Positions 1-19,610 of a DNA stretch of 33,989 bases are shown here, one piece after another. The translations under genes and the position numbers were made by a program. Numbering within the stretch: the stretch's first letter is position 1; each line of letters begins with the position of its first letter. The notes under the pieces were generated by a model. It searched no databases. It saw only the letters and a list, made by a program, of their open reading frames with translations, and was not told the DNA's origin. Origin of the DNA: a virus; IMG/VR virus record IMGVR_UViG_3300007229_000030, positions 1-33,989 of that record, one strand, 5' to 3'.

Positions 1-1428
1 CAATTGATGAAGGAAACTACAAAAGATGCGCTAATGTCTCCAGATCGTAGAATAGACCAGGTACTTGGGGCAACGGCAGGAAGTATTTTTGACAAGGCAG
101 GATCAGAGGCAATTAATAAAAAAGTTGTTGAAGCGCATTACAAACAATATCAAGAAGACTATCTTGCGAATCCTAATAGTTATATTCATGTTCATGAAAA
201 TAGCAAAGATCCTGAAATTGCTGAACGTGCTAAATTACTTCCAAAAACTACTAAGCGCCAAATTAATGCAGTTTGGGGAAAAACTGGTTTAAATGGAATG
301 ATGATTAAAAACGACGTATACAATATGTCGGTTGGGTATCGAAAATATTCAATTACTGAAGGGTATGATAAAAAAGCTTTAAGTTTAAAAGCAGCGATAA
401 AAACAGCTATTCCGTATTCACTTAATGATGAGCAGCAACGTACAATTGTTGAACAAGTAACTATTGGTATTGCGACTAAATTAGGCGTATCACAATTGCG
501 CGTTAAACAAACAGAAGATCTTTGGCAAGAAATTGTAGGAGTTGTTAAAGACATACTAGTTGTTAAAAATTTAGTAACGTTTTTAGGCAATTTATCAAGT
601 AATGCAACGCTTCTTGCTTGGTCAGGCGTGCCAATAAATAAAATTATTGCAGGGCATATAAAAGGGTTTATTGATATAAACAGGTATGAGAAAGATGAAA
701 AAAGGTTGTTTGAGCTGAAAAATAAGCTAGAGACAGGGTATTTTGCGGGGGCTTTAGAAAGGAATGTAAGGCAGGATATTGTTCGTCTTGAAAACGCTTT
801 AGAGCGTAATCCAGTACATAGTGAAGTACAAGCTGGGTTGTATCAAACTATTGTTGAAGATGGTATTGAAACAGACGATGACCCTTATTCAATGAAATCA
901 GCGTTAATGGCGTCTATTGATGAAAAGACGCAAAAAGTTCCTAAATTAATTAAAAACGGCGTTAAAATTGCTTTAATGACTCACGACACAGCGCTTTATA
1001 AAATGTTGCATAAAGGTACGCAGTACAGTGACTTTATTGGTCGGCTTGTACTGATAGAGCATTTACAAACGCGTAAAAAAGATCCTTTATCAATTGTAGC
1101 CGCTCGTAACAGAGCACAAGATTCTTTTGTTAACTACGATATTCCGCAACATAAAGGATTGCAGTATTTAAATGACACTGGATTAATTTGGTTTACTAAA
1201 TATTACATTCGTATTCAAAAAACGATTATTAATCTTTTGCGAGAAAAGCCTGCAAGGGCATTAGGATTGGCTGCAGTTGAAGCATACTTTCCAGCGCTAC
1301 AAAGTTTACTAGACTCTGTAGCGACTGAAAAGATAGCTAATCCTTTTGGTGCTGGAGCATTTGAAATAGTAGATACGTGGGACGATGCTATTACAATGCA
1401 AGTGTTAATGGATAGCTTAGGTGATTAG
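1..1428 (+). CDS. C-terminal part of a large virion protein, probably N4-type virion RNA polymerase (5' partial)
   Basis: The frame is open to the left edge (the first codon is CAA), so this is the last 475 residues of a longer protein; the TTG and ATG at 4 and 7 are probably internal codons. The visible part is mixed helical and hydrophilic, with no transmembrane segment or catalytic motif that I can name. A short hydrophobic, Asn/Ser-rich stretch lies near residues 190-210 and an aromatic, basic segment near 395-420. In N4-like phages the giant virion RNA polymerase gene (about 3500 codons) ends just beyond the SSB/recombination genes on the opposite strand, exactly this arrangement. The assignment is synteny-based inference; the polymerase catalytic domain would lie outside the window. 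It overlaps the next gene's stop by 4 bases (convergent). Another large injected internal virion protein is the main alternative. Confidence 0.6.
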   Translation, partial: QLMKETTKDALMSPDRRIDQVLGATAGSIFDKAGSEAINKKVVEAHYKQYQEDYLANPNSYIHVHENSKDPEIAERAKLLPKTTKRQINAVWGKTGLNGMMIKNDVYNMSVGYRKYSITEGYDKKALSLKAAIKTAIPYSLNDEQQRTIVEQVTIGIATKLGVSQLRVKQTEDLWQEIVGVVKDILVVKNLVTFLGNLSSNATLLAWSGVPINKIIAGHIKGFIDINRYEKDEKRLFELKNKLETGYFAGALERNVRQDIVRLENALERNPVHSEVQAGLYQTIVEDGIETDDDPYSMKSALMASIDEKTQKVPKLIKNGVKIALMTHDTALYKMLHKGTQYSDFIGRLVLIEHLQTRKKDPLSIVAARNRAQDSFVNYDIPQHKGLQYLNDTGLIWFTKYYIRIQKTIINLLREKPARALGLAAVEAYFPALQSLLDSVATEKIANPFGAGAFEIVDTWDDAITMQVLMDSLGD

Positions 1429-2427: not shown

Positions 2428-3150
2428 CTATCCCCAAAGGCTCTGAGAAGGTTTAGGCGTTGCTCCTGGTGCAGCTGGAGCGCCTTGGACGCCTGCTACG
2501 TTTTTTGTAGAGTTGTCTTTTAAGGTATCTGTGTACCGTTTTTCCCAGTTTTTGATGTAATTGGCTTCTGAGTCTTGAACTAAAGCTTCTGCAACAGTTT
2601 TTTTATCGCTAGCACGAAAAACTTTATTTATTTGCGTTTGCTCTCTTGTTTCACCTGTAGCCACGTAAGCACCGCTGTCGTTCAGCTCTGTTTTGTCTAC
2701 AATAGTTTTAACTAAGCCAACAATAACTGGGGCATCCAGCAAATCAACAAAAACTTGAACTTTAGTAGGAACGTCTTTCTTTTGTTCGTAATCGTAAATG
2801 TTAACGATTTTTTCTTCAGTAGTGAGGTCTTGTAATGTTTTGTTAGCAGCTAAGTTAGCAAACGAACTGCCTAATAGATAACCTGGCAATGGTTTTTCTT
2901 TGCCTGATTTTTTATCTGTATAAGTAGCTTTGTTGCCTTTTGCATCACCGGATGTAACGTATACTTTTTCAGAATGCGTACGTCCGTTACTTTCAAGAGT
3001 TAATGCTATAAAAGCTGCACCGTTTTTACTTACGCCCTGATAGGCCATAGTAATAGTACTTTCGTAAATGCCTGAATCTAAAGGACCGCTACTAGGAATG
3101 TAGTCAGTTTCTGTTTCAGTAGTAGTTAAATTTGCAAATGGATTTGTCAT
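2428..3150 (-). CDS. single-stranded DNA-binding protein candidate (N4 gp45 position)
   Basis: A 240-residue protein with a beta-rich N-terminal 150 residues (SGIYESTITMAYQG, AAFIALTLES, SEKVYVTSG, TKVQVFVDLLDAP) that would fit an OB fold. A Pro/Ala-rich flexible tail follows, ending in SQSLWG. Phage SSBs have this body-plus-tail layout, and this gene lies where N4 encodes its SSB, between a Sak4-like ATPase and the end of the middle operon. N4 SSB also activates late transcription by host RNA polymerase, using, as I recall, Tyr75 and two C-terminal lysines; the tail here is not lysine-rich. The role is inferred from position and architecture, since no single diagnostic motif is visible. Confidence 0.65.
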   Translation of the reverse strand: MTNPFANLTTTETETDYIPSSGPLDSGIYESTITMAYQGVSKNGAAFIALTLESNGRTHSEKVYVTSGDAKGNKATYTDKKSGKEKPLPGYLLGSSFANLAANKTLQDLTTEEKIVNIYDYEQKKDVPTKVQVFVDLLDAPVIVGLVKTIVDKTELNDSGAYVATGETREQTQINKVFRASDKKTVAEALVQDSEANYIKNWEKRYTDTLKDNSTKNVAGVQGAPAAPGATPKPSQSLWG

Positions 3151-3177: not shown

Positions 3178-3927
3178 TTAAACGTAATATTCATTTAAAC
3201 GCGTAATAACATGTTGCAAATTGTTATCAATAAACGTTTCATTGGTAGTAAACATTCCTAATGGTCCACGTAAACGCTCATTAACTGTGTCTTTAGTTAA
3301 TTTAGTTTGAAATACGTATTTAAAACCTAGAATGCGTTCTTCTTCTGTAATGTTAAGCAACTTAGATTCGTAACCTTCTAAATCTTTTAGCTTTACTTTT
3401 TTAGAAGAAATAACAGTTGAAAAGTAACTTTCAATGCCGTTATTTTTTAAAGAGCCTTTAATAGGAACTTTTGTTTCCATTATGTGCTCAGATTCATTTA
3501 GATTATCTAAAACATGTGCTGTAAAGATAACTGTTTTACTTGAAGTTGCTACATGCTTTTGCATAAGATTTTTAAAGTATTGTGCAAACTCGCCCCAAGC
3601 TTTCATGCCATTTGTTGATGATAATACGTAGTCAGATTCGTACATATCCATAAGATAAGTAAGTGAGTCAACAGCAATAGTATGTACGTCAGGCATTGTT
3701 TCTGCGCGTTCAAACGCTTCATAAACTTGGAATGGATCAGTAATGGTAAATCCTACGTTTCCGTCAGGACCTTTTAAAAATTTAGCTGGAAACGGTAATC
3801 GTTTACCTGCCTCGCAATTTAAATACATTACGCCTTCTGGATTTTCTAATCCCATAAGAGAATGTGATTTCCCAGTTGTAGATTTGCCGCCTAATAAAAC
3901 TAGGTGGTCATTTATATAAGTTGACAT
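3178..3927 (-). CDS. Sak4/RecA-like P-loop ATPase (AAA_24 type)
   Basis: A 249-residue RecA-fold ATPase. Walker A is GGKSTTGKS at residues 13-21 and a Walker B-like strand is HTIAVDSLTYL near 83-93. A polar strand (TVIFTAHV) follows, as in Sak4-type phage recombinases, which load on ssDNA with SSB and promote annealing or strand exchange. Size and layout match N4 gp44-type proteins. The start is set at 3927 because GGAGAC precedes that ATG at good spacing, while the in-frame start at 3960 lacks a site and would run into the hairpin leader. Immediate neighbours are the SSB candidate downstream and the primase/helicase upstream, giving a coherent replication-recombination block. Confidence 0.8.
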   Translation of the reverse strand: MSTYINDHLVLLGGKSTTGKSHSLMGLENPEGVMYLNCEAGKRLPFPAKFLKGPDGNVGFTITDPFQVYEAFERAETMPDVHTIAVDSLTYLMDMYESDYVLSSTNGMKAWGEFAQYFKNLMQKHVATSSKTVIFTAHVLDNLNESEHIMETKVPIKGSLKNNGIESYFSTVISSKKVKLKDLEGYESKLLNITEEERILGFKYVFQTKLTKDTVNERLRGPLGMFTTNETFIDNNLQHVITRLNEYYV

Positions 3928-3960
3928 GATGTCTCCAATAAATTGAATGATTTTGCGCAA

Positions 3961-3980
3961 AAGGGGACGGAGTCCCCAAT
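3961..3980 (-). terminator. GC-rich hairpin, terminator-like on the minus strand (copy 1 of a paired element)
   Basis: GGGGAC (3963-3968), loop GGA (3969-3971), GTCCCC (3972-3977): a perfect 6-bp stem with a 3-base loop. It starts six bases past the stop of the primase gene. On the minus strand it is followed by TTTTGCGC, so it can act as an intrinsic terminator or attenuator before the Sak4-like gene. A near copy lies at 9504-9523 with a compensatory pair change. The GGA loop also recalls N4 virion-polymerase promoter hairpins, which is the alternative reading on the plus strand. Confidence 0.6.
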
Positions 3981-3982: not shown

Positions 3983-6136
3983 TTAAATAGACGAAAGTTT
4001 TTTGCCTACAGTAACCATGATGGTGCCAAGAATTTCGGCTTCGTCTAATTTATCGACAAGCTTTTCATTAAGACTCATAACGCGTTGACGTATGTTTTCA
4101 AAATCATAACCTGCATCAACTAATACGTAAGCGTAACGCAGTAATTGATTATTACGATTTCCATCTCCAGTATTGTTAATAACCCAACGTTCAAGATTAT
4201 CTAAAGATTTTTGATCTTTAAATTGGTCTTTAAACTTTTCGTTTTTACTGGTTTTAGGTATAAAAGGTAAGACGTCTAAGATTTCGCCATCTTGATAATA
4301 ATAAGGACCATTATTAGATAACCACTTTCTTGCGCGTTGATTAGTTGCTTCGTCTACTTCAAAAGGAAGCCATTGAAACAAATTACTCATAAAGTCTTTA
4401 TAATCTTTTGCATCTAGTGTTAACTCATAATTAATAGGCATAACAATACGGAAACGCTGTTCTGTTTTAGTGTGTCGCTTAGTGGTGTAATACAAAGCTT
4501 TATAGTCTTTTAATAATAATTGCGCAGTAGATAAATTAATGCCTTTGTCTACGTCAATTACAATTATGTTAAAGCCCGATATAATGTTTTCTTCTTTACG
4601 ATGACCATTTGCTAAATGATGATTAACCCAGTGCATACCTGGATTTTGAGTTAACAGGTGTAACTGATCAAAAGGAGCTGTTTCGTTTCTATATCCTTTA
4701 GCTATATCTGTACTATAACTAAGGCGAATAGCATCAAGATTAGTTGCATTAAGTGATTCGCCACGTAAAAACTCAATGCTATCAACAAATGCTTTTTTAA
4801 TAAGAATATTGTTTTGATAGCCGTAAGCAATTGCTAATTGCATCATCTCGTTTTTTTGTGCTGCAGAGCCACGATAAAAAGGCAAATCTTCAACTAAGTC
4901 AGCTTGAGTAATGCTTCTATCTACATCGGCTATGTATTTAGCCAACTTAACGTAGGGCCTGTCGCGTGTTAACAAACTTGCAAAAGCAGCACCTGATTCT
5001 TCTGCTAATTTGATTGCGTAATACAAATGATCTTCGCTTAACTCAAGAGCGTCATCAATAAAAGCATAAGCGCCAGCAAGTTTTAAAACTTTCCACCATC
5101 TATGCGATATTTCAGCTTTTCGCATTTCTTCGTGTTCAGGCAACTGATCAGCTATTTGTTCACATTCAAGTTGATACTCAATAAGCATTAAAGTAACTTC
5201 TTCTGAAACAGAAATTGATTTGTTTACGTAGCTAGGGTCTGCTAATTTACCTATAGCAGTAGAAATAGCATCAATTTCAGCAGTAGTAGTGTTGTTTCTT
5301 CTTTGTTTAAGAATTTCTTCAGGAGTCTGGTTTAAGTTTCTACTGTGATGGCGTGAATAGCCAAAGAAACACCGTCGACCGTAACCTGTGTCAATCATTA
5401 CAAAAAATTCGTCTTCAGTTTTACTACCGTTAAATACGCGACTAGGTGTACCAAACAACATCATGTTAGTTGGAGTAGAGCCTTTAATTTCTTCGACGCG
5501 TTTGTTATCGCTACTGTTTTTAGTCAACTTACCTTTAATTTTGCCTACGTCATATAATTCTAAAAATGTATTAAATGCTTCACCATTGGAAGTTAAATAA
5601 GAACCGATTTCATCAACTTGCAAATTTAATGCGCCTACGCCAGCTAACAGAGCTTTATGTCTTGCAGATTTAATTGCAGGGCCAGAACCTGAATCAAAGC
5701 TATACACAAAATCGCCTATGTCGTGATATTCATTTTCAGCACGTTCCAGCTCTGTGTCTGGATCAGTACCTTTTTTGTGAGCACGTTGATTAGCAACAAC
5801 AGGTAAGTTTTGTTGTGCCATTAAAGGCATAGTTAATTGAAGAAAATTATGCTCAAATTGATTAATAATTTTATCTTCCATAAAGTTTGTAGAAACGCCT
5901 TTACCGCTGCCAGAGGTTGAAAGATTAATGGTATACATATTAATAGGAACGTCAGCGCCATCTAATGTGGCAACACTAGCTCGCATCATTGAAGCTACTG
6001 TCGCAAAATAATATGCAACAGATATACGAAAAAATAATGGGTTAGTGTTTTGAGTTTTCTTGCACAAAATGTCTACTAACTTTTCCTGTATTGGATGAAA
6101 AGTCATTTCTTCTACAGGCTTTAATCGTTTTTTCAT
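3983..6136 (-). CDS. large replication protein: P-loop N-terminal domain plus archaeo-eukaryotic-primase-like C-terminal domain
   Basis: A 717-residue protein in the N4 gp42 position. The N-terminal part resembles DUF3987-type phage helicase-like proteins, with a P-loop-like TSGSGKG at residues 74-80 and a Walker B-like LNLQVDEIGSYL in the region of residues 170-185. The C-terminal part has archaeo-eukaryotic primase features: the DVD motif at about 528-530 in IIVIDVDKG, TTKRH at about 551-555, FRIVMP just after, and an Asp/Asn/Arg segment (DEATNQRARKW) near 595-605. It would unwind and prime phage DNA. The order (ATPase first, primase last) is the reverse of most PrimPol-helicase fusions. 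The ATG has a good AAGGAA site. The assignment to replication is firm; the exact split of activities is inferred. Confidence 0.7.
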   Translation of the reverse strand: MKKRLKPVEEMTFHPIQEKLVDILCKKTQNTNPLFFRISVAYYFATVASMMRASVATLDGADVPINMYTINLSTSGSGKGVSTNFMEDKIINQFEHNFLQLTMPLMAQQNLPVVANQRAHKKGTDPDTELERAENEYHDIGDFVYSFDSGSGPAIKSARHKALLAGVGALNLQVDEIGSYLTSNGEAFNTFLELYDVGKIKGKLTKNSSDNKRVEEIKGSTPTNMMLFGTPSRVFNGSKTEDEFFVMIDTGYGRRCFFGYSRHHSRNLNQTPEEILKQRRNNTTTAEIDAISTAIGKLADPSYVNKSISVSEEVTLMLIEYQLECEQIADQLPEHEEMRKAEISHRWWKVLKLAGAYAFIDDALELSEDHLYYAIKLAEESGAAFASLLTRDRPYVKLAKYIADVDRSITQADLVEDLPFYRGSAAQKNEMMQLAIAYGYQNNILIKKAFVDSIEFLRGESLNATNLDAIRLSYSTDIAKGYRNETAPFDQLHLLTQNPGMHWVNHHLANGHRKEENIISGFNIIVIDVDKGINLSTAQLLLKDYKALYYTTKRHTKTEQRFRIVMPINYELTLDAKDYKDFMSNLFQWLPFEVDEATNQRARKWLSNNGPYYYQDGEILDVLPFIPKTSKNEKFKDQFKDQKSLDNLERWVINNTGDGNRNNQLLRYAYVLVDAGYDFENIRQRVMSLNEKLVDKLDEAEILGTIMVTVGKKLSSI

Positions 6137-6151: not shown

Positions 6152-7114
6152 TTAAAGTGAGCCATTAGCTAAGTAAGAATCTTTTTGCTTGCACACTGAA
6201 TACGCATTGCAGTAGTTACACGCAATAACTTTTCCAGGTACTTCTTTAACAATGCCAACATTGCCATCTTCATGCAGACGCATATATGCTTCAGCTGAAT
6301 TAGGAAAGTTTTTAGTGCTTCTATTGGTTTTAGCTGGATTTTTAAAGTATTTGTACACGGGTGCTTTGCGCCACAATTCACTGTCGTTACACAATGGAAT
6401 GTCTTCATCAGCGGCATGATGTAACTTTTCTATTGTGGCTAGTTTTTTGCGCACGTACTGTTCGGTTTCTTCTAAAGAAAGTAATGGAATTATGCGTTCC
6501 ATTACAGGATTAGGAGGATACTTAGGGTCACTTGCTGCAAAAGCAGGTTTCCAATCGGTAAATAAAAATTGAATAGCAAATACGTTATCAGTAATTATTT
6601 CTGGAGCTAACCAGCGATAAATACTTCCTTGTAGCTGATAATCTTCGTCTTTATTAGCAGCACTCCATGTATAGGCACTGGTAGACTTAAAATCTTCAAG
6701 TCTGCCGTTACATACAAAGTCAACTTTTCCTGATATACGCTTCCCTTCAAAATCTTTGTAATAGCGTTGTTCCATATAAATAGGAATATCTTCTGGCTCT
6801 AGATCAGTAGCATTAACTTTAACGCGTTGAATTAATTCGTCTGAATGCCCTAACAAGCGCATAGCGTTTTGATAATTACCTAACCAGGCTTTCTCAATGC
6901 CGTCATGTATTGCAGTGCCAATACGAGATTTAAATAAGCTCATCAATTCAGTATTGGCATCTTCTTCGGCTACTCGATTAGAAAGTACAGTTTGTCTAAC
7001 TGACTTCAATAACCGAGTTGCTGAGATAGTGTTAGGGTCGTGATCGTAATGATCAGTAGCTAGGAATACAGCTACTGACAGGGGAACATTAGATGTGCCG
7101 GTGTAAGCAGTCAT
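6152..7114 (-). CDS. PD-(D/E)XK exonuclease, Cas4-like (N4 gp43 type)
   Basis: A 320-residue nuclease. The core reads GTAIHDGIEKA (motif I helix with its His), ISGKVDFVC (the Asp strand), LEDFKST (the D/E-X-K pair) and YQLQGSIYRWL (the Q/Y helix), in the order of Cas4/RecB/AddB nucleases. Four cysteines are placed for an iron-sulfur cluster: C242 in PLCNDSELW and C299, C302, C308 in CNYCNAYSVC, although canonical Cas4 puts its first Cys on the N-terminal side of the catalytic core. It probably resects DNA ends for the Sak4/SSB recombination system encoded just downstream. The start has an AAGGA site. The gene is directly followed (15 bases) by the primase gene. Confidence 0.8.
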   Translation of the reverse strand: MTAYTGTSNVPLSVAVFLATDHYDHDPNTISATRLLKSVRQTVLSNRVAEEDANTELMSLFKSRIGTAIHDGIEKAWLGNYQNAMRLLGHSDELIQRVKVNATDLEPEDIPIYMEQRYYKDFEGKRISGKVDFVCNGRLEDFKSTSAYTWSAANKDEDYQLQGSIYRWLAPEIITDNVFAIQFLFTDWKPAFAASDPKYPPNPVMERIIPLLSLEETEQYVRKKLATIEKLHHAADEDIPLCNDSELWRKAPVYKYFKNPAKTNRSTKNFPNSAEAYMRLHEDGNVGIVKEVPGKVIACNYCNAYSVCKQKDSYLANGSL

Positions 7115-7122: not shown

Positions 7123-7620
7123 TTAAGAAAAAGTAGAAGTAGTTTTAGCTCGATTAGCTGCAGCAGCTTCGCCACTTAATGCAAAATACGCAGCACCGTC
7201 TTCGTAATTGTCTTCTCGATAGCCGCCTTGTTGGGTACGCACAGCCTTTAACAAGGTCATAAATAGCCAGCCACGCTCTTCACTGCTCATTTGACCATCA
7301 CCAGTAACTGCGTTAAATGCAGCCACTGCAGCAGCCATAGAACGTTCACCAGCTGGGTTGTCGTACGTAATTGCACGATCTTCCATGTGGCCGGCAGCTG
7401 CTTTTAAAAAATCAGGAGCGCGTTTAACAGAACTGCTGTCAGAGTCGTCAAACCAAGCGTTAATTTTGGATTGCAAGCGAGCATCGTCTTGAAAATCTTG
7501 TTCGCACAGCTCAACAGGCGAATTTTGAGATTCACATTCAAAGCAATAAGGAGTTAAGTCAGTTTTTTGGTTAAGGCAATTGGGGTTGTTTTCGCATAAT
7601 TGGGAAAAATCTTTAAACAT
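7123..7620 (-). CDS. DUF6378-like phage protein with N-terminal cysteine cluster
   Basis: A 165-residue protein and the first gene of the leftward recombination operon. Residues about 70-155 show the pattern I associate with the phage family DUF6378: a helix with HMEDRAITYDNPAGE, then MSSEERGWLFMTLLKAVRTQQ, then EDNYEDGAAYFALSGEA. This acidic, all-helical pattern resembles MazG-like nucleotide pyrophosphohydrolases, so a nucleotide-pool role is possible but unproven. The N-terminal 40 residues hold five cysteines (about C9, C15, C26, C29, C39) that could bind zinc. An AAAAGGAA site precedes the ATG. It lies 8 bases upstream of the nuclease gene. The 272 bases before it are the attP region; I see no convincing promoter there. 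Confidence 0.6.
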   Translation of the reverse strand: MFKDFSQLCENNPNCLNQKTDLTPYCFECESQNSPVELCEQDFQDDARLQSKINAWFDDSDSSSVKRAPDFLKAAAGHMEDRAITYDNPAGERSMAAAVAAFNAVTGDGQMSSEERGWLFMTLLKAVRTQQGGYREDNYEDGAAYFALSGEAAAANRAKTTSTFS

Positions 7621-7716
7621 AGGAGGGTTCCTTTTTGTGGGAAGCAGACACTAACAAGCGTCTAATAAGTTTTCTGAAAAAATTTAAGCAGCCACAATTA
7701 CACTCCAGAGCAATAA

Positions 7717-7742
7717 TTCTGGGACAGTTTTTGGGACACTTT
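7717..7742. repeat. P-arm direct repeats of the attachment site (two copies)
   Basis: Two adjacent direct copies of the motif TTTTGGGACACTTT: 7717-7730 (12 of 14 bases) and 7729-7742 (14 of 14), offset by 12 bases. They end about 100 bases left of the tRNA-like core. Identical copies lie on the other side of the core inside the end of the integrase gene. This layout is that of arm-type integrase-binding sites. Confidence 0.7.
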
Positions 7743-7840
7743 GAAAATGATTGAGCAAATTGCAACACAGGGCAGGAAGCCTATGCTGTTGTTATATAAA
7801 GGTTTTTATAATTTGTTGTACTGTGCTGAAATGGGTAAAA

Positions 7841-7868
7841 ACGGATTCGAGTCCCGTCCGGTCCGCCA
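7841..7868 (+). other. attP: attP core: 3' end of a tRNA-Asp gene
   Basis: The bases from 7846 to 7868 read TTCGAGT (T-loop), CCCGT (T-stem 3' strand), CCGGTCC (acceptor 3' strand), then G and CCA. E. coli tRNA-Asp ends in the same way apart from one acceptor base, so this is the 3' end of a tRNA-Asp gene. The 5' T-stem strand (ACGGA, 7841-7845) leaves one mismatch at its last pair, and no D-arm, anticodon arm or 5' acceptor strand lies upstream, so this is not a functional tRNA. The fragment sits 24 bases past the integrase stop and between two sets of direct repeats, the standard position of a phage core site. Integration would restore the host tRNA's 3' end. Confidence 0.85.
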
Positions 7869-7892
7869 TATATCTTCTTGTAAGTACCTGTT

Positions 7893-9044
7893 TTAGTGAT
7901 CTTTTTTTGACTCAATAGAAGCAATTTTGTTTTTGGGACACTTTTGGGACACTTTCTGAATTTGAGGGGCTATTCCTTCAAATCTTAAAGGATCTTGTTC
8001 TGAGCAATATTCGTCAATAAATTCTGAATACGTAGCTAAAAACATCTGCAATGAGTGTCCTAGCTGTTTTGCTGCTTCTGCAGGAGCAATTCCAATAGAT
8101 AATAGCTCTGCTGCTCGTGTATGGCGGCACGTATACGGTATCCGATACGCAGTATCGGTAACCGTATGCGCACGCTTCCAAGCTTTATTGAAATTATCAG
8201 CATCACAGTAAAAACTATCAAACTTGTTTAAAAAGATATAACTGTTTTTAAAACGAGTAGGGTGCTCATTCAATAGTTCTTGTACCCAGGTAGGCACAGC
8301 AACTTTACGAGATACGTAAGTTTTAGTTGAATACTTGATTCGACGCCGTGTAATGGTCTTGCTGACGTGCAATTGCTTACCGTTGTAATCTTTCCACTGC
8401 AGTGCTAAAACCTCACCAGCAGGTCTAAGGCCACAACCAAGAAGTATTGCAAAGTAAACTAAATGCTCATCTTTAAGTGCAGACAACAAACGACTACGTT
8501 CTTCGGGTAAATAGCGATCTACAGGGGTTTTTTGGTCTTTATCGCTTTTTTTGAGATGAAAATCAGCAGGGTTTGGCTTGATACCTAAATGATTAAATAT
8601 CCCACGTAATGGAATCAAAGCATTCTTTTTTCGTTTGCGAGACACTTTACGTCCAGCAACTTGACGCGCATCTAGTACTTTTTTAATTTCTTTTGTTGTG
8701 ATCTCTTCAGCTAAATGATTGCCAAATGCGGGCATCCACCAACTGTTGATGCTGCTTTCGTAATCTAAGTGACTAGAGTAAGAACCGCCTAAATCATCAA
8801 GGTACTCTTGCGCAGCAATATGAAACAAATGTACTTGAGTAATTTCTTCTTGATTTAAAGCAATGCCAAATTTAAGGCGGTGTTTAACTTCGTCTCTTAG
8901 CTTAATCGCTTTGGCGATACCACTCTTGGTGTTAATGTTGACATTGAGCGTTTGGTTGAAGACAAGTTTACCGTTTTTGCGGATTCTAACTCGCGGTTTT
9001 CCACGATGTTCGTCGATGCATATGGGCCACCTTCGCTCCACCAT
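7893..9044 (-). CDS. int: tyrosine-family site-specific integrase
   Basis: A 383-residue tyrosine recombinase. An N-terminal arm-binding region (about 1-65) is followed by a SAM-like core-binding domain (about 70-165) and the catalytic domain. Catalytic residues are R207 (GCGLRPAGEVLAL), K241 (STKTYVSRKV), Y304 and R307 (PYTCRHTRAA, where Tyr replaces the usual first His, as in several lambda-like integrases), H330 (QLGHSL) and the nucleophile Y339 (LATYSEF). The start at 9044 has an AAGGAG site nine bases upstream, inside the excisionase-like gene. The 3' end encodes the P'-arm repeats and the attP core follows. It would recombine attP with the 3' end of host tRNA-Asp. Confidence 0.95.
   Translation of the reverse strand: MVERRWPICIDEHRGKPRVRIRKNGKLVFNQTLNVNINTKSGIAKAIKLRDEVKHRLKFGIALNQEEITQVHLFHIAAQEYLDDLGGSYSSHLDYESSINSWWMPAFGNHLAEEITTKEIKKVLDARQVAGRKVSRKRKKNALIPLRGIFNHLGIKPNPADFHLKKSDKDQKTPVDRYLPEERSRLLSALKDEHLVYFAILLGCGLRPAGEVLALQWKDYNGKQLHVSKTITRRRIKYSTKTYVSRKVAVPTWVQELLNEHPTRFKNSYIFLNKFDSFYCDADNFNKAWKRAHTVTDTAYRIPYTCRHTRAAELLSIGIAPAEAAKQLGHSLQMFLATYSEFIDEYCSEQDPLRFEGIAPQIQKVSQKCPKNKIASIESKKDH
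7930..7955. repeat. P'-arm direct repeats of the attachment site (two copies), inside int
   Basis: Two perfect direct copies of TTTTGGGACACTTT at 7931-7944 and 7942-7955, offset by 11 bases and overlapping slightly, in the same orientation as the left-arm copies. They lie within the last codons of int and begin 62 bases right of the tRNA-like core. A 15-base string starting with one extra T is identical at 7728-7742 and 7930-7944. Confidence 0.75.
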
Positions 9045-9208
9045 TGATCCATGCTCCTTATGTTGACTGAGCTGCCATTAGACCCTGAAACATAATGTTT
9101 TCCTAGTGTTATAGGGTGTGAACCATGGCGTTTCCAGTACTCAAATTGATTTTTAGTGTAACCACCGTCAATAAGGTATTTAGCTAAATTGATCCATTCT
9201 TGTTGCAT
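8897..9208 (-). CDS. excisionase-like recombination directionality factor
   Basis: A 103-residue protein. The first 60 residues fit small phage excisionases of the DUF1233 kind: a Trp near the N-terminus (EWINLAKYLIDGGYTKNQF), a winged-helix recognition segment (EYWKRHGSHPITLGKHYVSG), and a terminal helix with a buried Trp pair (IRSMDQWWSEGG). Such proteins bend attachment-site DNA and direct integrase towards excision. An AAGGAG site precedes the ATG. The last 49 codons overlap the start of int by 148 bases in another frame; that tail is low in recognisable structure, so the functional part is probably residues 1-65. The gene order xis-int agrees with lambda-like recombination modules. Confidence 0.7.
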   Translation of the reverse strand: MQQEWINLAKYLIDGGYTKNQFEYWKRHGSHPITLGKHYVSGSNGSSVNIRSMDQWWSEGGPYASTNIVENRELESAKTVNLSSTKRSMSTLTPRVVSPKRLS

Positions 9209-9228
9209 AATAACTCCTTAATATTCAA

Positions 9229-9456
9229 TTAGTTAACGTTTTTTTGTAGTCTAGGATCTTTGTTTGCAAGATTTGTAATAACTTCAAAAACGGCTTTACC
9301 GTCTTCAAATTTAAATTTTGCCCAAGCATTGGCTAAACAGTACTGCTCAATCTGTTTTTGATTCCAATCTCGAAAATTAAGCGGTAATGGATATTCTAAA
9401 TAAATGCCTGATGCCCACACGTAAGAGTGTGCATCTTGAGTAATAGGAGAAGTCAT
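9229..9456 (-). CDS. hypothetical protein, 75 aa, first gene of the int operon
   Basis: A short soluble protein that I do not recognise. It contains many aromatic residues (YVWASGIYLEYPLPLNF), a helical segment (WNQKQIEQYCLANAWAKF) and a basic C-terminus. The start is set at 9456, where GAGGG precedes the ATG; the longer in-frame start at 9591 would run through the 9504-9523 hairpin and lacks a ribosome-binding site. It precedes the excisionase-like gene by 20 bases and is probably transcribed with xis and int. No motif supports a function. Confidence 0.55.
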   Translation of the reverse strand: MTSPITQDAHSYVWASGIYLEYPLPLNFRDWNQKQIEQYCLANAWAKFKFEDGKAVFEVITNLANKDPRLQKNVN

Positions 9457-9503: not shown

Positions 9504-9523
9504 AAGGGGCCGGAGGCCCCAGT
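9504..9523 (+). promoter_or_regulatory. GC-rich GGA-loop hairpin in the divergent region between int operon and fibre gene (copy 2)
   Basis: GGGGCC (9506-9511), loop GGA (9512-9514), GGCCCC (9515-9520). Flanks match copy 1: both read AAGGGG, then C or A, CGGAG, then G or T, CCCCA. The differing bases pair with each other (C-G here, A-T at 3967/3973). It lies 136 bases or less from both divergent genes and 70 bases before the fibre ATG. No long T-run follows on either strand, so a terminator is less convincing here. A 3-base loop with central G in a 6-bp stem matches what I recall of N4 virion RNA polymerase promoters. A possible weak -10 (TATAAC, 9556-9561) without a clear -35 follows for the fibre gene. 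Confidence 0.45.
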
Positions 9524-9591: not shown

Positions 9592-12500
9592 ATGGTTTTA
9601 TATTGCGGAACAGGGTCTGGAAATACCCCTTCACCTGGAGATCCAAGTAATCCTTCACAATTAGTAGCAACGCCAGTTTTTGAAGGGATTCGTATAAGCT
9701 GGGATTTTCCTGCAGTTAATCCAGAAACTGTTGCTCATTTTATTGTATATCGGTCAACAACTAACATTTACGATGACGCTGATACTTTTAAAATTACTTC
9801 ATCAGATTCAATAACAGATTTTTTAGACGTAAGTTTACCTACAACTTATTTTTATTGGGTAGCTGTGCGTGCAGTCAATGGGTATATTGGAGAAATTCAA
9901 GGACCTGCTTGGGCTACTGCACAACCAAAAAAAGTATCTATTCTTGATGCATTAAGTGCAGATATAAATGCGTCTAAATTAGCATTAGATTTGCAAGAAT
10001 CTATTGGAAAAATAGATATTTTAGAAGACACAATTCTATTAAATGAAACAAATCGAGATACTGATGTAACTACGCTAACTAATCTTATTGCGCAAGTAAA
10101 TGAAGATACTGAATATTCAGCATCAATATGGCAAGAAGAAATTACAACAAGAGCGACTGATTACAATGCGCTTTCCCAATCTATTGTTACGCAACAAACT
10201 ACTTTAGGTGACAATACTGCTTCTATTGAAATATTGTCTGAAGTAGCTGATGGTATTAGTGGAGAGTATTACGTAAAGATTGATAATAACGGCGCTATGA
10301 CGGGATTTGGGCTATCTAGCGAAGCTGTTTATGATGTTAACGGCAATGTAACTGGCGCAGTATCTCAGTTTATTGTTGATGCTAATCGTTTTGTTATTAG
10401 AGACTCTGATACGTACAATTCAGCTACTAATCCAAATAGTGTTAATCCTTTTATAGTCGACAGCGGCATAACTTATATTAATGAAGCTGTTATTAAGTCT
10501 ATTCAATCTGTAGATTACAATAATGACCCAGGTAGTCAATTTACTGGCTGGAAGATAGATCGTTCAGGCAGCATCGAAGCAGCAGCAATAACTATTTATG
10601 CTTCTGACGGTACAACAATACTTCAAGCCGGTGATCCTTCAGACGCTATTGCTAACTCTGCACAAGCTTGGAGTGATATTGGAGGTACAGGCAAGCCAGC
10701 TAATGACGCTACACGTAATTTTTTTCGTGGCTTATACCTGACTACAGCAGATTATGTAGTTGGCGACATGGTCACTTACGAAAGCGAAGTATATATTTGT
10801 ATTTTAAATCATGTAGCTGAAGCTGCAGCTAATACAACGCCAAGTGGTGATGGCACTGCTAATACTTACTGGGATATTTTTAGTAAAAAAGGTGATCCAG
10901 GCATATCTATTAGTAGCACTGTAAGCGTTGATGGCGTAACAACTGTCACGTTTAGTGATGGCAGCACAATAGTTATTAATGACGGTACAGACGGTGCAGT
11001 AAGCAACGCAAGAAGCGTGTCTTTGTCTGCGCCAACACAAGCAATTGCTTATGATTCAGAAGGTAATACGCCATCTCCTAGTGCAAATTTTGTAGTAACG
11101 GCTACTTCAGTTAACACAGAAGGTACGGCTAAATACACGTTTAAAGTTAATGGTATTGAAGCACAAGCTAAAAGCACTTCAGCTACTTATACGTACACGC
11201 CGCCTACTACGTATGCTGCTCTACCTGACGTTATTACTGTTGAGCTGACAGAAGATAGTGATACAGAAATCTTAGACACTGACACATATACTATTTTTGG
11301 CGTTAAACCTGGCGTAACAGGAGAAACGGGGGATAACCCGTTTACTAAAACTGATTTAACTGCGCAGTACAAACCGTTTACAGCAGGCTCAGGTGCTATA
11401 GATTTTTGGAACACTAGTGAAAACACTAATGATGGCGCAGATGTAAGAGAAATAGATATTGACGCTTTTGGCGGAAAATCTGTAATTTGGAAAGCTATTA
11501 ATGGACACACTCACGGAGACACTGCACCTTTAGATTTAACAGACAATGATGCTGACGGAGGATTTAATTCTGCTAGGTTTGCTATAGATCATACTAAGCT
11601 GTATAGATATTCAATATTTATAAAACAAGATACTGATTTAGATGGCGGAAAATATTGGGGAACGCACGGATATAGCAGCTCAGCTAGTGATTGCATAATA
11701 GAAATAGCGCCAAACACTGCAACTGATGGGACAACTAATCCGTATTTTTGGACAGGAGAAACTTTACCTACAAATGATGAATGGTATTTAATTGTTGGTT
11801 ACGTTTTTCCTAGTGACACTGTAGGTACACCGCATTTAACTACAGAAATGTACCATGTAGCTAGCGGACAAAAAGTAGCTGGTGTTACCGGATTTAAAAC
11901 TTTTAAATGGTTAGACACTGCTCTTGAAAGTAACTGCAGGGCTTATCAATATTATAATGCACGTGATGTTGCAGATGAAGTTTGGTTTTGGCAACCACGT
12001 GTAGATGCAATGGTTGACGATACGCCGTCAATTCAGGACATTTTAAGAAAAGGTTTTAAAGGCGAAGTAGGTAATAGCGGACTTAACGGCGCTAGCGTTA
12101 ATATAATTTTTCAAAGAGCTGCTACTGCACCTAGTACGCCAGAAACTTCTTCATCCATACCAACTGATTGGGCAGATTCTCCATCAAATTCAGCTGGCTT
12201 TCTTTGGGCAAGCAAAGGCACAACTGCTGTAGATAGCAATGACTATGTGTGGGAAACGCCGTATCAAGTTGATGGTAGTGTTTTTGCAGAAATTACTATC
12301 TTTAAAAAAGCTGTTACTGCTAATACGCCTACTACTGGATCATATAATTTTACTAATAGTACACTTACTGCTCCTAGTGGTTGGAGTACTTCTATTCCTG
12401 CAATTTCTGCAAATAATGAAATTATTTATGCTTCAGTAGGATTATTTAGTGGCGCTAGCACAGATTCTGCGGTTACTACTACGTGGTCGTCTCCTGTTAT

Positions 12501-15500
12501 TTACGCGCAAAGAACTGATGGCACTGACGGTGCGCCAGGTGATGATGGTAATCCAGGCGATAATGCTTTAACAATTGTTTTAAGCAACGAAGTACATACA
12601 GTGCCTGCTAATGCTGCAGGCAGTGTAGATTCTAGTGATTACTTGGGATCAGGTACAATTATTCGAGTGTATGACGGCGCAGAACAATTAGATTACGATG
12701 CAGTTGGTACAACTACTGGGCATTACACTATTGTTGCTGCTGCAACAGGAATAACAATAAATGCTATAAGCCAAACAGGACCTAGAGCCGCTAGAGTCGC
12801 TGACTTTAGTGCTATGACAGCAGATGTTGCTACTGTTGAATACACAATTACTGGCAAAAATTTATCTGGCGTAGCGTTTGAGACTACAAAAACTCAAACA
12901 ATTACTAAATCAAAAGCAGGTGTTCAAGGTAATCCTGGCAGTAGCGTATCTATTGCAAACACTAGCACTAGTAACGGCGTAACAACCATAACATTTAATG
13001 ACTCTAACGGATCTATTGACATTTCTGATGGGTCTGATGGATCTAGTGCTCAAATAGCCATAGCATATGCTTCTTCTGAAAACGGTGCTAATGCATCGTT
13101 TACTGCTGCTGACAATCTTAAATTTGTAAAATACCATGAATATACGGGCACTGCGCCTTCACTAGATGATGATGATGTATTTAGTAGTGGGTTTGTAAGA
13201 TACATTGGAGAAGATGGCAGCACACCTACTAACTCAGGAGTGCAAACTTTTTTTGCTGAAAATGCAAATGGTTTTAACAAATCAATAACGTTTCTTGCTG
13301 GGCTAGAGTACGTCAATCTGTATGAATGGACAGAAACCCGTATTGCTAATAATGATGATATTCCTGATGGTTTAACTTACGTAAAATTTTCAGGCACTGA
13401 TGGAACTACTCCGCAATTAGGCGTTGATTATTTTAACGCTGTTGATCCGTCTATATTTACTTGGAGAGGTAATAACACTTGGCCTACAAACACAGATTAT
13501 GCTGGCGGAGATAAATATACTTTTACTTCAACAGAAAGTGGAAAATGTTTAATAAAAGTTTTAGCTTTTGATGCAGAAAGCGGTGCTATTGTAGGATTGA
13601 ATGGTACTCAATTGGGCACAATGCTCGGCCCTAATAATGCTACACAAATGTATTCTTTTACAGCAACTAACTTAATTGCTGGCTCTAATGAAATTAGTAT
13701 TTGGTCAAGCAATGGTGATGGCGGCGCAATTAAAGAAATACATGTATTTCATATTGCTGCTGATGGTATTAACGGCACGTCGATTAAATTGGAGTACAGT
13801 CTCAATGGGTCAAATAATTGGCACGATGAATTTGCTGTTGGAGATTTATACGTAAGATCCGGCACAAAAGCTGGAAATGCTTCAGTGTATACATATGGTG
13901 CAGCTACTAAATTTGTGCCTGAAAAAGGTGTTGAATACGATGATGGTGATGATGGAACTAACGCTTATTTACATTTAGCTTATGGAACAAGTGCTACAGG
14001 TACTAACTTTAGTCAAGATCCTGCAGGCGCTACTTACATTGGTAGTTACACTGATACCGTAATAACAGATTCTGCTAATCCATCAAATTACACTTGGGCA
14101 AAAATTAGAGGAGAAGATGGTACAGATGGTACAGGCGTAAAAGTTGTTTATGCTAGTTATTCATCCGGAACTGATAAAAGTTTTACACAAGGCACGCGAC
14201 AATTTGTTAAGTATCATGAATACACCGGCAGCGTTCCATTAATAGGCGAGATACCTGCCAGTGGCTTTGTAAGATTTATTGGAGAAGATGGATCTACGCC
14301 AACAAACTCAGGTGTAAAACCTGTTTATTCAATAGACGGAACTTCCAGTACAGAAAATTCTAACTTATCGTTTATTCCGTTTGAACATCAATATGTAACT
14401 TTTTACGAATGGACGGGCAGTGCGCCTATATCAATTAATGATCTTAATTTATCAAATTCTATATTTGTTAAATTTGAAGGAACCGATGGCGAAGATGGCG
14501 AAGATGGAGTTGATGGACTAAGAGGCGGTGGCTTAGATTTAAATTTTATTAATGCTGAAATGGATGCAACTGGAGCAGTCAATAAAATTTCAACGTCTAC
14601 ATCTTGGAACTCATCTGTTCACTCTACTAATTCTTACGAAGGTGGTTGTTATTTAACATTTAAAACATTAACTACCGATGTAGCGTATATGGTGGCTTTA
14701 AATGAAACTTCTGATGTTACTAACAGTGGGTACGCAACATTAGATTTTGCTTGGAATATTCGTTCACAAGGAAATCTATCAGCTTATGAAAGTGGTGTTT
14801 GGCAAAGTTTAGTTCCAGCTATACCTTATTACAGCGTTAACGACGTATTTTCTATTACGTATGACAACGATAAAGTACGTTATTTACATAATGGCGTAGT
14901 CATGCGTACTGTTGAAGTAGGGCCTGGAAAGAAATTTCATTTTGATTCCAGTATTGGCTATAAAAACACTACTCAGTTGTCTGCTGCAAACATTAAAGTG
15001 TTTACCGATGTACATTTTGCGCCTCAAGGTAACGTTGGCGTTGATGGCACAAGCGCATTAATTCCTAATTTGTTACCGGCTCGACTAACTGATGCCATAG
15101 CTGACGATAATTTTAATAATTATGAAATTTTATTTGGAATACTGCCGACAGATAATATTGATACGTGGGACGTAACGCTTGTTGATGGAGGTTACGGTTA
15201 TGATAGTAATGGGAATCCAATTAATTATTGGGTTCCTCCGTGGACGTCTGAATCAGCCGTTACTAATGGTGTCGATGCGCCATCAACAGATTTAAATATT
15301 AGTCCTACTGATTTTCAAGGCGGTTCAGGAGCCGTCACAGAATTTATAGTCAATTACAACAATGCTCCGGCTACAGGAACGTGGAAAGCACTAAGCGGTG
15401 CTAATAGAGGGAGTGCATCTTCTGAGGGCGGCTACCCACAAGGTGGTAGTGATCAAGGTTTTGAAGTAAGCATGACGTTTGTGCCTGGCGTTAAAAGTCG

Positions 15501-16695
15501 GTTAGTTTTTGAAAAATTACTGGATAACAGTGTTGTTCCACCAACGCCATCAGAAGCGTGGTTAATAGGCAAAAGATCTACAGGACAGAGCCAAGCTTAT
15601 TTTGGAGAGGTAGATCAATTAGACATTCTTTTTGATTCAAAAAAAGAATATTTAATTAGTTTTGATATTTGGGAAAGTAATGGTGGTTCGTCTGCTACTG
15701 AAGTGTATGGAAATAAATTTGATACACGAGGATCAAAACTTAGGCTTTTTTTGGAGGCAGGTTTAGATAGAACGGTTGATACCGCAAGTTATGCATCTGG
15801 TGCCGACACATGGGAATCTACTTCTGCTAGTAACAGTAGCGGGGTTTGGAACAGAGTAACACTAGGGCCTTATTCATGGTCTGCTGATTATCCTCGATCC
15901 ACGCGTGGGCGTATTCGAGTAATCGTGCCTAATCCGACTGTAGAAAGCTACCAAGTAGATGCTGACGGCTGGATGCAAAGAATGGCAATTAAAAATTTAA
16001 GTTTAACTGAGTTAAATATTAACGCGTCTTATGATGCCGCAGGTAATCTTTATCCTGTGGAGTATAGACCGCCTTTGGCATTAAAATTAACTGCCGCAAA
16101 CAAACAAACGTACATTAGTAATTTAAGTGTAGATACTTTACAAATTGCTAACCAAGCTGTTGTAGTACCAACTTTAGTTACTATGCCTCAAGTAACGTTA
16201 ACAAGAGGTGCATTGACTACGCCTAATTCCATTGATTATTTGTTTAATGGTGGTGGATGGTTAATGGACTTTATACTGCCTGTAACAGGAGCGCCAATAA
16301 GTTTTTTCTTGAGTCGAACTTTAACTGAAGGGGTTTCTCAAAATTTTACGGATATTAAAGGCACACAGGCTTCTGGAGGATTAAATCTAGGTATGTCTGT
16401 AAGTTACGAACATCCTGTAGCACCAACAATTAATAACTATTTAGGACAAATGCAAGGGTACGTTAATTTACATGATTATTCTCCGTACAGAATTTCTAGA
16501 GAGCATTTTGGTGAATCAACAAAACTATTTAATTTTACTCCAGATTTAAATCAATGGAAATCTTTGGAAAATGGCCACCTTTACGCAGATGAAATTAGAA
16601 TAAAAGTAGGGCTTTTTGGGACTAGCAGGCGCGTAAATGCTGGCTTTGAATTTAACATTACTTTGAATGCTTTGTGTTTGGAGACAAAAAAATAA
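9592..16695 (+). CDS. giant tail fibre / receptor-binding protein with lambda gpJ-like modules
   Basis: A 2367-residue protein. Residues about 22-112 form a fibronectin type III domain (IRISWDFPA, HFIVYRSTT, YFYWVAVRAVNG). Residues about 115-225 are helical and about 225-350 match the DUF1983/central-spike region of gpJ-type tail-tip proteins (YYVKIDNNGAMTGFGLS, VSQFIVDANRFVIRD, INEAVIKSIQS). The rest is a chain of beta-rich modules separated by collagen-like Gly-Asp stretches (DGTDG, DGEDGEDGVDG), two of them duplicated. The C-terminal 600 residues look like carbohydrate-binding or adhesin sandwiches. The N-terminal hub domains of gpJ are absent, so this is the distal half of a gpJ-like protein used as a free-standing fibre. 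TAGGTAG precedes the ATG, and the stop overlaps the next start (TAATG). Confidence 0.85.
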   Translation: MVLYCGTGSGNTPSPGDPSNPSQLVATPVFEGIRISWDFPAVNPETVAHFIVYRSTTNIYDDADTFKITSSDSITDFLDVSLPTTYFYWVAVRAVNGYIGEIQGPAWATAQPKKVSILDALSADINASKLALDLQESIGKIDILEDTILLNETNRDTDVTTLTNLIAQVNEDTEYSASIWQEEITTRATDYNALSQSIVTQQTTLGDNTASIEILSEVADGISGEYYVKIDNNGAMTGFGLSSEAVYDVNGNVTGAVSQFIVDANRFVIRDSDTYNSATNPNSVNPFIVDSGITYINEAVIKSIQSVDYNNDPGSQFTGWKIDRSGSIEAAAITIYASDGTTILQAGDPSDAIANSAQAWSDIGGTGKPANDATRNFFRGLYLTTADYVVGDMVTYESEVYICILNHVAEAAANTTPSGDGTANTYWDIFSKKGDPGISISSTVSVDGVTTVTFSDGSTIVINDGTDGAVSNARSVSLSAPTQAIAYDSEGNTPSPSANFVVTATSVNTEGTAKYTFKVNGIEAQAKSTSATYTYTPPTTYAALPDVITVELTEDSDTEILDTDTYTIFGVKPGVTGETGDNPFTKTDLTAQYKPFTAGSGAIDFWNTSENTNDGADVREIDIDAFGGKSVIWKAINGHTHGDTAPLDLTDNDADGGFNSARFAIDHTKLYRYSIFIKQDTDLDGGKYWGTHGYSSSASDCIIEIAPNTATDGTTNPYFWTGETLPTNDEWYLIVGYVFPSDTVGTPHLTTEMYHVASGQKVAGVTGFKTFKWLDTALESNCRAYQYYNARDVADEVWFWQPRVDAMVDDTPSIQDILRKGFKGEVGNSGLNGASVNIIFQRAATAPSTPETSSSIPTDWADSPSNSAGFLWASKGTTAVDSNDYVWETPYQVDGSVFAEITIFKKAVTANTPTTGSYNFTNSTLTAPSGWSTSIPAISANNEIIYASVGLFSGASTDSAVTTTWSSPVIYAQRTDGTDGAPGDDGNPGDNALTIVLSNEVHTVPANAAGSVDSSDYLGSGTIIRVYDGAEQLDYDAVGTTTGHYTIVAAATGITINAISQTGPRAARVADFSAMTADVATVEYTITGKNLSGVAFETTKTQTITKSKAGVQGNPGSSVSIANTSTSNGVTTITFNDSNGSIDISDGSDGSSAQIAIAYASSENGANASFTAADNLKFVKYHEYTGTAPSLDDDDVFSSGFVRYIGEDGSTPTNSGVQTFFAENANGFNKSITFLAGLEYVNLYEWTETRIANNDDIPDGLTYVKFSGTDGTTPQLGVDYFNAVDPSIFTWRGNNTWPTNTDYAGGDKYTFTSTESGKCLIKVLAFDAESGAIVGLNGTQLGTMLGPNNATQMYSFTATNLIAGSNEISIWSSNGDGGAIKEIHVFHIAADGINGTSIKLEYSLNGSNNWHDEFAVGDLYVRSGTKAGNASVYTYGAATKFVPEKGVEYDDGDDGTNAYLHLAYGTSATGTNFSQDPAGATYIGSYTDTVITDSANPSNYTWAKIRGEDGTDGTGVKVVYASYSSGTDKSFTQGTRQFVKYHEYTGSVPLIGEIPASGFVRFIGEDGSTPTNSGVKPVYSIDGTSSTENSNLSFIPFEHQYVTFYEWTGSAPISINDLNLSNSIFVKFEGTDGEDGEDGVDGLRGGGLDLNFINAEMDATGAVNKISTSTSWNSSVHSTNSYEGGCYLTFKTLTTDVAYMVALNETSDVTNSGYATLDFAWNIRSQGNLSAYESGVWQSLVPAIPYYSVNDVFSITYDNDKVRYLHNGVVMRTVEVGPGKKFHFDSSIGYKNTTQLSAANIKVFTDVHFAPQGNVGVDGTSALIPNLLPARLTDAIADDNFNNYEILFGILPTDNIDTWDVTLVDGGYGYDSNGNPINYWVPPWTSESAVTNGVDAPSTDLNISPTDFQGGSGAVTEFIVNYNNAPATGTWKALSGANRGSASSEGGYPQGGSDQGFEVSMTFVPGVKSRLVFEKLLDNSVVPPTPSEAWLIGKRSTGQSQAYFGEVDQLDILFDSKKEYLISFDIWESNGGSSATEVYGNKFDTRGSKLRLFLEAGLDRTVDTASYASGADTWESTSASNSSGVWNRVTLGPYSWSADYPRSTRGRIRVIVPNPTVESYQVDADGWMQRMAIKNLSLTELNINASYDAAGNLYPVEYRPPLALKLTAANKQTYISNLSVDTLQIANQAVVVPTLVTMPQVTLTRGALTTPNSIDYLFNGGGWLMDFILPVTGAPISFFLSRTLTEGVSQNFTDIKGTQASGGLNLGMSVSYEHPVAPTINNYLGQMQGYVNLHDYSPYRISREHFGESTKLFNFTPDLNQWKSLENGHLYADEIRIKVGLFGTSRRVNAGFEFNITLNALCLETKK
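13054..13404 (+). repeat. fibre module B, copy 1
   Basis: Residues 1155-1271 of the giant fibre. They share with 14137-14490 the landmarks FVKYHEYTG, SGFVR(Y/F)IGEDGSTPTNSGV, an aromatic YEWT segment and VKF(S/E)GTDG, in the same order and spacing. The nucleotide sequences have diverged more than the protein, so the duplication is old or maintained by protein-level selection. Confidence 0.8.
14137..14490 (+). repeat. fibre module B, copy 2
   Basis: Residues 1516-1633 of the giant fibre, the second copy of the module at 13054-13404. It ends at the start of the most regular collagen-like run of the protein (GEDGEDGVDG), after which the sequence family changes. Module boundaries at Gly-Asp repeats are typical places for recombination between fibre genes. 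Confidence 0.8.
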
Positions 16696-17147
16696 TGGAT
16701 CATTATTATGTTTATCAAGAAACAACTGGCTTAATTGTTATGAAGTTACACGGGACAGCTGCAGTTGCAAATAGACAAGCAACTACTGGCCGTAAAGTTA
16801 AAAAAGGAATAGTTGATATAAACAATCAAATATTTGACGTTAATTTAGACCGTTTAATAAATAAACCATTAATTAGCTACACGGTAAATGTTGTTTCTGA
16901 TGCTTCAGGCAATATAACTATTGCTGCAGATGGAATAGACACTCTTATAATTTCTGAATTGCCTTTAGAAACAAAATTAACAGTGAACGGGCAATCTGAA
17001 ATTGCAAATCCTACTTTAGACGCATCAGGTAATGTTATTAAAAATAGTGGTGTTGTGGAATTTTCTGTAGATTTAGCAGGTACTTACCTGCTTAATCTTA
17101 CTAATATTCATTTTAAAGACACCATTTTAACGGTACAAGCACTATGA
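16695..17147 (+). CDS. small fibre-associated protein, 150 aa
   Basis: Beta-rich protein directly coupled to the giant fibre (TAATG overlap, GGAGA site 9-13 bases before). It begins MDHYYVYQETTGLIVMK, a style common in tail-fibre accessory and assembly proteins. A central segment (SDASGNITIAADGIDT) and a late one (DLAGTYLLNLTNIHFKDT) suggest beta-sandwich strands. A strong hairpin (AGCAGGTA, CT, TACCTGCT at 17075-17092) falls inside the coding region near its end. Its place between the fibre and a DUF4376-like gene points to fibre assembly or attachment; no catalytic motif is seen. Confidence 0.6.
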   Translation: MDHYYVYQETTGLIVMKLHGTAAVANRQATTGRKVKKGIVDINNQIFDVNLDRLINKPLISYTVNVVSDASGNITIAADGIDTLIISELPLETKLTVNGQSEIANPTLDASGNVIKNSGVVEFSVDLAGTYLLNLTNIHFKDTILTVQAL

Positions 17148-18115: not shown

Positions 18116-18183
18116 ATTTTGGCTCCAAATATAAATTAAATAGACAAAAGAAAAATTTCTTCAGAAAAATAAAAATTGATGAA

Positions 18184-18198: not shown

Positions 18199-18235
18199 CG
18201 CGCTATCAAAGTCGTTGTAACAGGAAACTTATTTT

Positions 18236-18340: not shown

Positions 18341-18361
18341 TCAGATCCATTATGTAAGTCG

Positions 18362-18410: not shown

Positions 18411-18437
18411 ATTATTAAGTTTACTAAGGAATTACTT

Positions 18438-19562: not shown

Positions 19563-19610
19563 TGATTAATTTCTTGTTACGACTATTTGCTTTTGATTAC
19601 GAGAAAAATT

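Follow-up and report, generated by a model that had tools for sequence, protein, structure and literature searches.

N4-like phages have been held to be strictly lytic, a trait that is wanted in therapy phages. The first transcripts of the type phage N4 are made by a polymerase that arrives in the virion, and a prophage would lack this enzyme. In N4, the injected polymerase reads the early genes from hairpin promoters, RNAPII reads the middle genes, and the host sigma70 polymerase together with N4 SSB reads the late genes (PMC4496689). The idea of a temperate N4-like phage is not new: N4-like viruses and proviruses with an integrase have been published, and a lysogenic lifestyle was proposed for them (PMC10654107, mSystems 2023). 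An initial annotation of the DNA studied here described N4-like phages as virulent; this view is outdated: reports from 2021-2023 describe N4-like genomes and proviruses with an integrase. The published viruses combine N4 hallmark genes with an integrase and occur as proviruses in bacterial contigs, as in the present study. The main text of that report (PMC10654107) gives neither attachment sites nor promoters, whereas our phage has a defined attP. T7-like cyanophages, a podovirus lineage with lytic dynamics, likewise carry an integrase and an attachment site, and integrate without forming stable lysogens (PMC8776855). They belong to another family, and transient integration was shown there, whereas the phage described here is known from its sequence.

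New in the present analysis are the attachment site, the probable source of the integration cassette, a prophage resolved at its junctions, and a hairpin before the int operon. A defined attP with its tRNA target, an integrated relative with a vRNAP gene, and the hairpin make lysogeny and prophage restart directly testable.

Genome context of the integration module

The window, that is, the whole stretch of DNA analyzed, is an entire virus record of 33,989 bp and represents a fragment of the phage genome. It begins with the C-terminal part of an N4-type virion RNA polymerase (vRNAP; 1-1428, plus strand; phrog_2206, E 1.8e-137), whose gene runs off the contig; the last 474 amino acids are encoded in the window and are matched by N4 vRNAP structures in the PDB (E 4e-30). 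The minus strand encodes a gp46-like RuvC-type protein (1847-2437; phrog_159, E 1.6e-37), an N4-type single-stranded DNA-binding protein (SSB; 2428-3150; phrog_743, E 3.3e-59), a Sak4-like annealing protein (3178-3960; phrog_124, E 1.7e-44), an N4-type DNA primase (3983-6136; phrog_2135, E 0, 1067 bits), an N4 gp42-type exonuclease of the PD-(D/E)XK type (6152-7114; phrog_2139, E 3.8e-123), and a gp41-like, DUF6378-like protein (7123-7620; phrog_474, E 1.7e-24), which is the next gene past the integration module. The phrog_474 label of this last gene, "phosphofructokinase", looks wrong; Pfam suggests DUF6378, with a match just below the cut-off. Further along the same strand are a family A DNA polymerase (25637-28255; phrog_17, E 5.6e-143), a Dda/RecD-like helicase (28864-30129; phrog_325, E 1.6e-106), an N4 gp25-type VWA-like protein (30136-31401; phrog_1314, E 2.1e-111, PHROG label "HNH endonuclease"), and an N4 gp24-type AAA+ ATPase (31292-32341; phrog_1297, E 3.4e-111).

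The DNA polymerase, primase, and SSB are of N4 type and are arranged in N4 order. The virulent type phage, Escherichia phage N4 (NC_008720), has in common with the window the order helicase, DNA polymerase, exonuclease, primase, Sak4, SSB, and vRNAP. No integrase is annotated within the 50 kb of N4 viewed, whereas the window phage has an integration module, and unlike N4 it carries this module and an opposite-strand late block between the DNA polymerase and exonuclease genes. The N4-like gene order proposed in the initial annotation was thus confirmed by the vRNAP end and by the primase, exonuclease, SSB, DNA polymerase, helicase, VWA-type, and AAA proteins. The primase was matched by 470 phage records with a top identity of 55%, and no near match to the window phage was present in the 50,697 phage records searched.

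The suggested comparison with Schitoviridae core genes could be made in a sister phage (G001, 66.9 kb), which encodes an N4-type major head protein, portal, terminase, and both RNAPII subunits, together with a 3683-aa ORF at the vRNAP position; the window, as a fragment, is without the portal, terminase, head protein, and RNAPII genes. On this gene content and order, we assign the window phage to the Schitoviridae as a genuine N4-like phage.

Integrase, excisionase-like gene, and attachment site

The integration module lies at 7715-9456, and the coordinates given in the initial annotation are correct. Leftward from 9591, its order is a hairpin (9520-9506), a 75-aa ORF, an excisionase-like ORF, int, a pair of arm sites, the attP core, and another pair of arm sites. 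The 75-aa ORF (9229-9456, minus strand) is the probable first gene of the int operon; its ATG at 9456 was assigned from an N-terminus in common with the sister phage, in which the ORF is present but diverged (pN 0.27).

The tyrosine integrase (383 aa; 7893-9044, minus strand) was recognized by PF00589 (E 8.5e-12, above the cut-off) and by the phrog_1 integrase family (E 4.9e-39). Alignment to the solved IntI4 and to the integrase of a related virus contig (L032) located the catalytic residues R207, R307, H330, and Y339, and K241 was placed by inspection; all five are intact, as the initial annotation had indicated. A tyrosine (Y304) replaces the histidine of the HxxR motif, as it does in the relatives. 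The tyrosine recombinase signature R-K-(H/Y)xxR-H-Y is therefore represented by R207, K241, Y304xxR307, H330, and Y339. Integrase relatives in the 50,697 phage records were at most about 29% identical among the matches listed.

The excisionase-like ORF (103 aa; 8897-9208, minus strand) overlaps the start of int by 148 bp. None of the profile libraries searched gave it a name. It aligned weakly (32% over 56 aa) with the excisionase-like ORF of the related cassette, which in turn weakly matched a PHROG excisionase family (E 0.0019). The predicted fold, of low confidence (pLDDT 50), is helix-helix-strands-helix; identification as an excisionase by fold was rejected because the model was too poor for a structure search. 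The overlapping gene noted earlier thus keeps its description as excisionase-like, on the basis of one weak alignment and a low-confidence model.

The attP core is a 24-bp sequence, TTCGAGTCCCGTCCGGTCCGCCAT (7846-7869, plus strand), that bacterial tRNA-Asp(gtc) carries unchanged at its 3' end. The exact 24-mer occurs in 3 of 369 genomes of one bacterial class (that of G014), each time as the tRNA-Asp(gtc) 3' end plus the next base, and the chance expectation for such a match is about 2e-10. The window contains no complete tRNA gene. Four copies of a TTTTGGGACACTTT-like sequence form two pairs of arm-type integrase sites, one on either side of the core. The first pair (7715-7742, plus strand, with copies at 7715-7730 and 7727-7742) is partly kept in the sister phage, and the second (7929-7955, plus strand) lies within the 3' end of int. 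The arm motif is found nowhere else in the window, and the four copies observed compare with a shuffle mean of 0.26. The locus thus shows the features of a tRNA-targeting attP, namely a core equal to a tRNA 3' end, arm-type repeats on both sides, and an adjoining int. The 24-bp identity and the two arm pairs bear out the tRNA-Asp core with arm repeats that had been reported for this region. In one of the three genomes with the exact 24-mer (L058, G253:C15), a tRNA-Asp end and its flank match 29 nt of the window attP; this genome is a candidate relative of the host, or the match arose by chance.

We estimate a probability of roughly 0.85 that the module functions as a cassette for site-specific integration and excision in a Schitoviridae phage, and the window lineage is probably able to integrate. 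The infecting phage DNA would be circularised before integration, and Int would bind the arm and core sites of attP. By analogy with its family, Int would then carry out recombination between the 24-bp core and the host tRNA-Asp gene at its 3' end; as the phage brings an identical 3' sequence, the tRNA would stay intact. The reverse reaction would fall to the excisionase-like protein, as in its family. Integration may lead to lysogeny.

An integrated N4-like relative

Bacterial genomes were searched with a primase alignment, which gave eight loci. One of them, contig C129 (JANJVG010000124.1, G009:C129; 127 kb) of a Burkholderiaceae MAG, has an integrase on the same contig. Its N4-like genes are in N4 order, with homologues of the MCP, portal, terminase, and RNAPII and a virion polymerase of 3733 aa. 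The element is bounded by 50-bp perfect repeats, of which that at 166-215 forms the 3' portion of a complete tRNA-Cys gene and that at 76431-76480 is a tRNA-Cys fragment. An integrase and an HTH_17 excisionase are encoded just inside attL. Past attR, about 50 kb of further sequence with tRNA-Gly, tRNA-Leu, a racemase gene, and fumarase represents the host chromosome. Based on MAG sequence and with a left host flank of only 137 bp, we identify C129 as an N4-like prophage integrated in a bacterial chromosome. Its early genes adjoin the terminase inside the element, suggesting that the virion ends join before integration.

The prophage resembles the sister phage in its primase (62% identical), terminase (70-73%), and MCP (62-69%), and in having its integrase beside the att site. 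It differs in its tRNA-Cys target, in its integrase, in the HTH_17 excisionase, and in the location of int, which lies at the DNA polymerase end of the late block. C129 therefore supports the principle of N4-like integration and not integration by the window phage itself, since integrase and target differ. N4-family phages can probably lie dormant. No N4-like prophage beyond C129 was found in 399 genomes of the order to which the MAG belongs. The proposed search of bacterial genomes for the window phage bounded by tRNA-Asp attL/attR found no such copy among the sequences searched; the integrated relative C129 lies in tRNA-Cys.

A 75.9-kb N4-like contig in the isolate assembly of Vreelandella venusta NBRC 102221 (L042, G010:C16) had no integrase match on the contig. 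Either a phage was present in the culture, or the element exists in an extrachromosomal state.

Integration and lysogeny

Integration by itself does not show lysogeny. The module is compatible with ordinary lysogeny under an unrecognised repressor, or with integration without stable lysogeny, in which rare, transient insertion would occur during lytic infection and stable lysogens would never form, as in the T7-like cyanophages (PMC8776855). Besides this precedent, two results favor the latter reading. First, no recognisable repressor was seen among the ORFs scanned in the window, itself a fragment, or among the small ORFs tested in the sister phage. Second, all copies seen are free attP forms: the six copies (the window, four other metagenome contigs, and the sister phage) have an unoccupied attP and no host-phage junction, and three attP-flank patterns searched in IMG/VR returned free attP forms only. 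In the 369 genomes of the class of G014, no integrase exceeded 36% identity. However, the excisionase-like gene is kept under selection (see below), the C129 relative has intact-looking late genes in a bacterial contig that continues for about 50 kb beyond attR, and 40 N4-like proviruses have been reported (PMC10654107). We consider integration without lysogeny unlikely, though it deserves some weight. The temperate N4-like lineage of the initial annotation stands as regards a complete-looking module and a probable ability to integrate; no recognisable repressor and no integrated copy of the window phage were found among the sequences searched.

Conservation and origin of the module

We also considered whether the module is a passenger, that is, a relic, a satellite, or a product of chimeric assembly that is non-functional in the phage. 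Close relatives of the integrase occur in only two lineages of the virus collection searched, and seven of eight related N4-like records tested have none; both results are in keeping with such a passenger. Against it, the same arrangement recurs in the sister phage and in five assemblies drawn from different datasets. Four other metagenome contigs are 99.93-99.99% identical to the window, which rules out a chimeric assembly, and one of them runs from the tail fibre gene through the module to the polymerase gene. The sister phage shows about 80% nucleotide identity over the module region and carries the module at the same place, and its attP core is unchanged although flanking bases differ. Relative to the sister phage, dN/dS was 0.105 for int and 0.106 for the excisionase-like ORF outside the int overlap, close to the values for the exonuclease and SSB. 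By this measure (dN/dS about 0.1), both genes are under purifying selection. Together with the catalytic residues and the conserved core, these comparisons largely refute the passenger reading, which we regard as very improbable.

The presence of the module in four contigs and in a sister phage with a full N4 core indicates neither a chimera nor a recent gain. Judged from these genomes, the Schitoviridae lineage has carried the cassette for some time. The alternative raised in the initial annotation, that the cassette was recently gained, is contradicted by the sister phage, in which, at about 80% identity, the module occupies the same position and is subject to purifying selection.

The small virus contigs L032-L034 encode integrases 38-40% identical to that of the window. 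The overlap between an excisionase-like ORF and int is repeated in L032, and both L032 and L034 have a near-identical tRNA-Asp core, GTTCGAGTCCCGTCCGCTCCGCCAT, near int. L034 also encodes a repressor, a RecE-like exonuclease, and replication initiation genes, indicating that the cassette belongs to lambda-like temperate phages. Unlike the window, L032 and L034 have a RecE-like exonuclease, an ordinary SSB, and, in L034, the repressor, and no N4 genes were seen in them. A lambda-like temperate phage is the probable donor of the cassette, with the transfer predating the split between the window phage and its sister. That the window is itself a lambda-like temperate phage with borrowed N4 replication genes, as the resemblance of the cassettes might suggest, is a reading to which we give almost no credence, because it conflicts with the vRNAP end and the N4 gene order and is refuted by the N4-type portal, terminase, head protein, and RNAPII of the sister phage.

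Hairpins upstream of the int operon and of Sak4

The initial annotation had pointed out that a prophage could not rely on an injected polymerase for its first transcripts. This difficulty is real but not absolute, since the host sigma70 polymerase with SSB reads the late genes of N4 (PMC4496689). The host polymerase could in this way restart a prophage.

Hairpins were scanned for as C-TYC-G triloop stems. In N4 (1-50 kb), the scan returned three sites only, at 90-102, 555-575, and 4546-4562, upstream of gp1, gp2, and gp15, which by position and sequence we take to be the known early promoters. In the window, it returned two hairpins only, both on the strand of int and the replication genes. 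GGGGCC-TCC-GGCCCC (9506-9520, minus strand) lies about 50 nt upstream of the int operon and is present at the same place with the same loop in the sister phage. GGGGAC-TCC-GTCCCC (3963-3977, minus strand) lies upstream of Sak4, is promoter-like or a terminator, and is also found at the same place in the sister phage.

The hairpin at 9520-9506 places a stem with a TYC triloop ahead of a gene, on the non-template strand. The base contacted in N4, -8G on the template strand, is a C in this hairpin (stem GGGGCC/GGCCCC); the requirement for G is that of the N4 polymerase (PMC3715699, PMC4496689). In 21 N4-like stretches, TCC outnumbered GGA triloops on the gene strand by 20 to 1, suggesting that the loop is read on one strand; a preference for UNCG-type RNA loops could also explain this bias. 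The Sak4 hairpin is followed by T runs, and the primase-Sak4 junction has a TCCG tetraloop in two relatives and a plain terminator with seven T in another. The 3963-3977 hairpin may therefore well act as a terminator. Because of the different -8 base and the tetraloops and terminator in relatives, we did not accept the hairpins as certain vRNAP promoters.

The hairpin before the int operon resembles vRNAP promoters and may be a terminator. It has no leftward gene just before it and a poor T run, which favors a promoter. We offer as a speculative and rather improbable model that the int/xis operon is transcribed from this hairpin by the injected vRNAP, so that integrase would be made on infection only and be silent in the prophage. 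If this is true, the choice to integrate would be set by the polymerase brought in with the virion, and the family would need no lambda-type control of int.

Strand-specific TCC/TTC triloops were also observed between operons of N4-like phages, including the sister phage (L036-L039), often with TTTTGTGA after the stem. These inter-operon hairpins are vRNAP promoters, terminators, or both.

Late block beside the module

A plus-strand block (9592-24567) with the tail fibre gene and small late-type genes lies between the DNA polymerase and the exonuclease. Its first gene, which adjoins the module, encodes a tail fibre protein of 2367 aa (9592-16695, plus strand; phrog_496, E 3e-30; phrog_23593, E 4.6e-34). 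The protein contains many collagen-like GXX stretches and aligns only piecewise with the 2302-aa fibre of the sister phage.

The lone minus-strand gene in the late block is an ORF of 170 aa (17603-18115), predicted with low confidence to be helical. It is a possible cargo gene or regulator. A role as the repressor was considered and rejected, as the ORF had no family match and a poor structure model. At roughly the same position, the sister phage has a methyltransferase-like gene. In the Burkholderiaceae prophage, the tail fibre and lysozyme genes likewise lie toward the exonuclease side, with att and int at the opposite end of the block.
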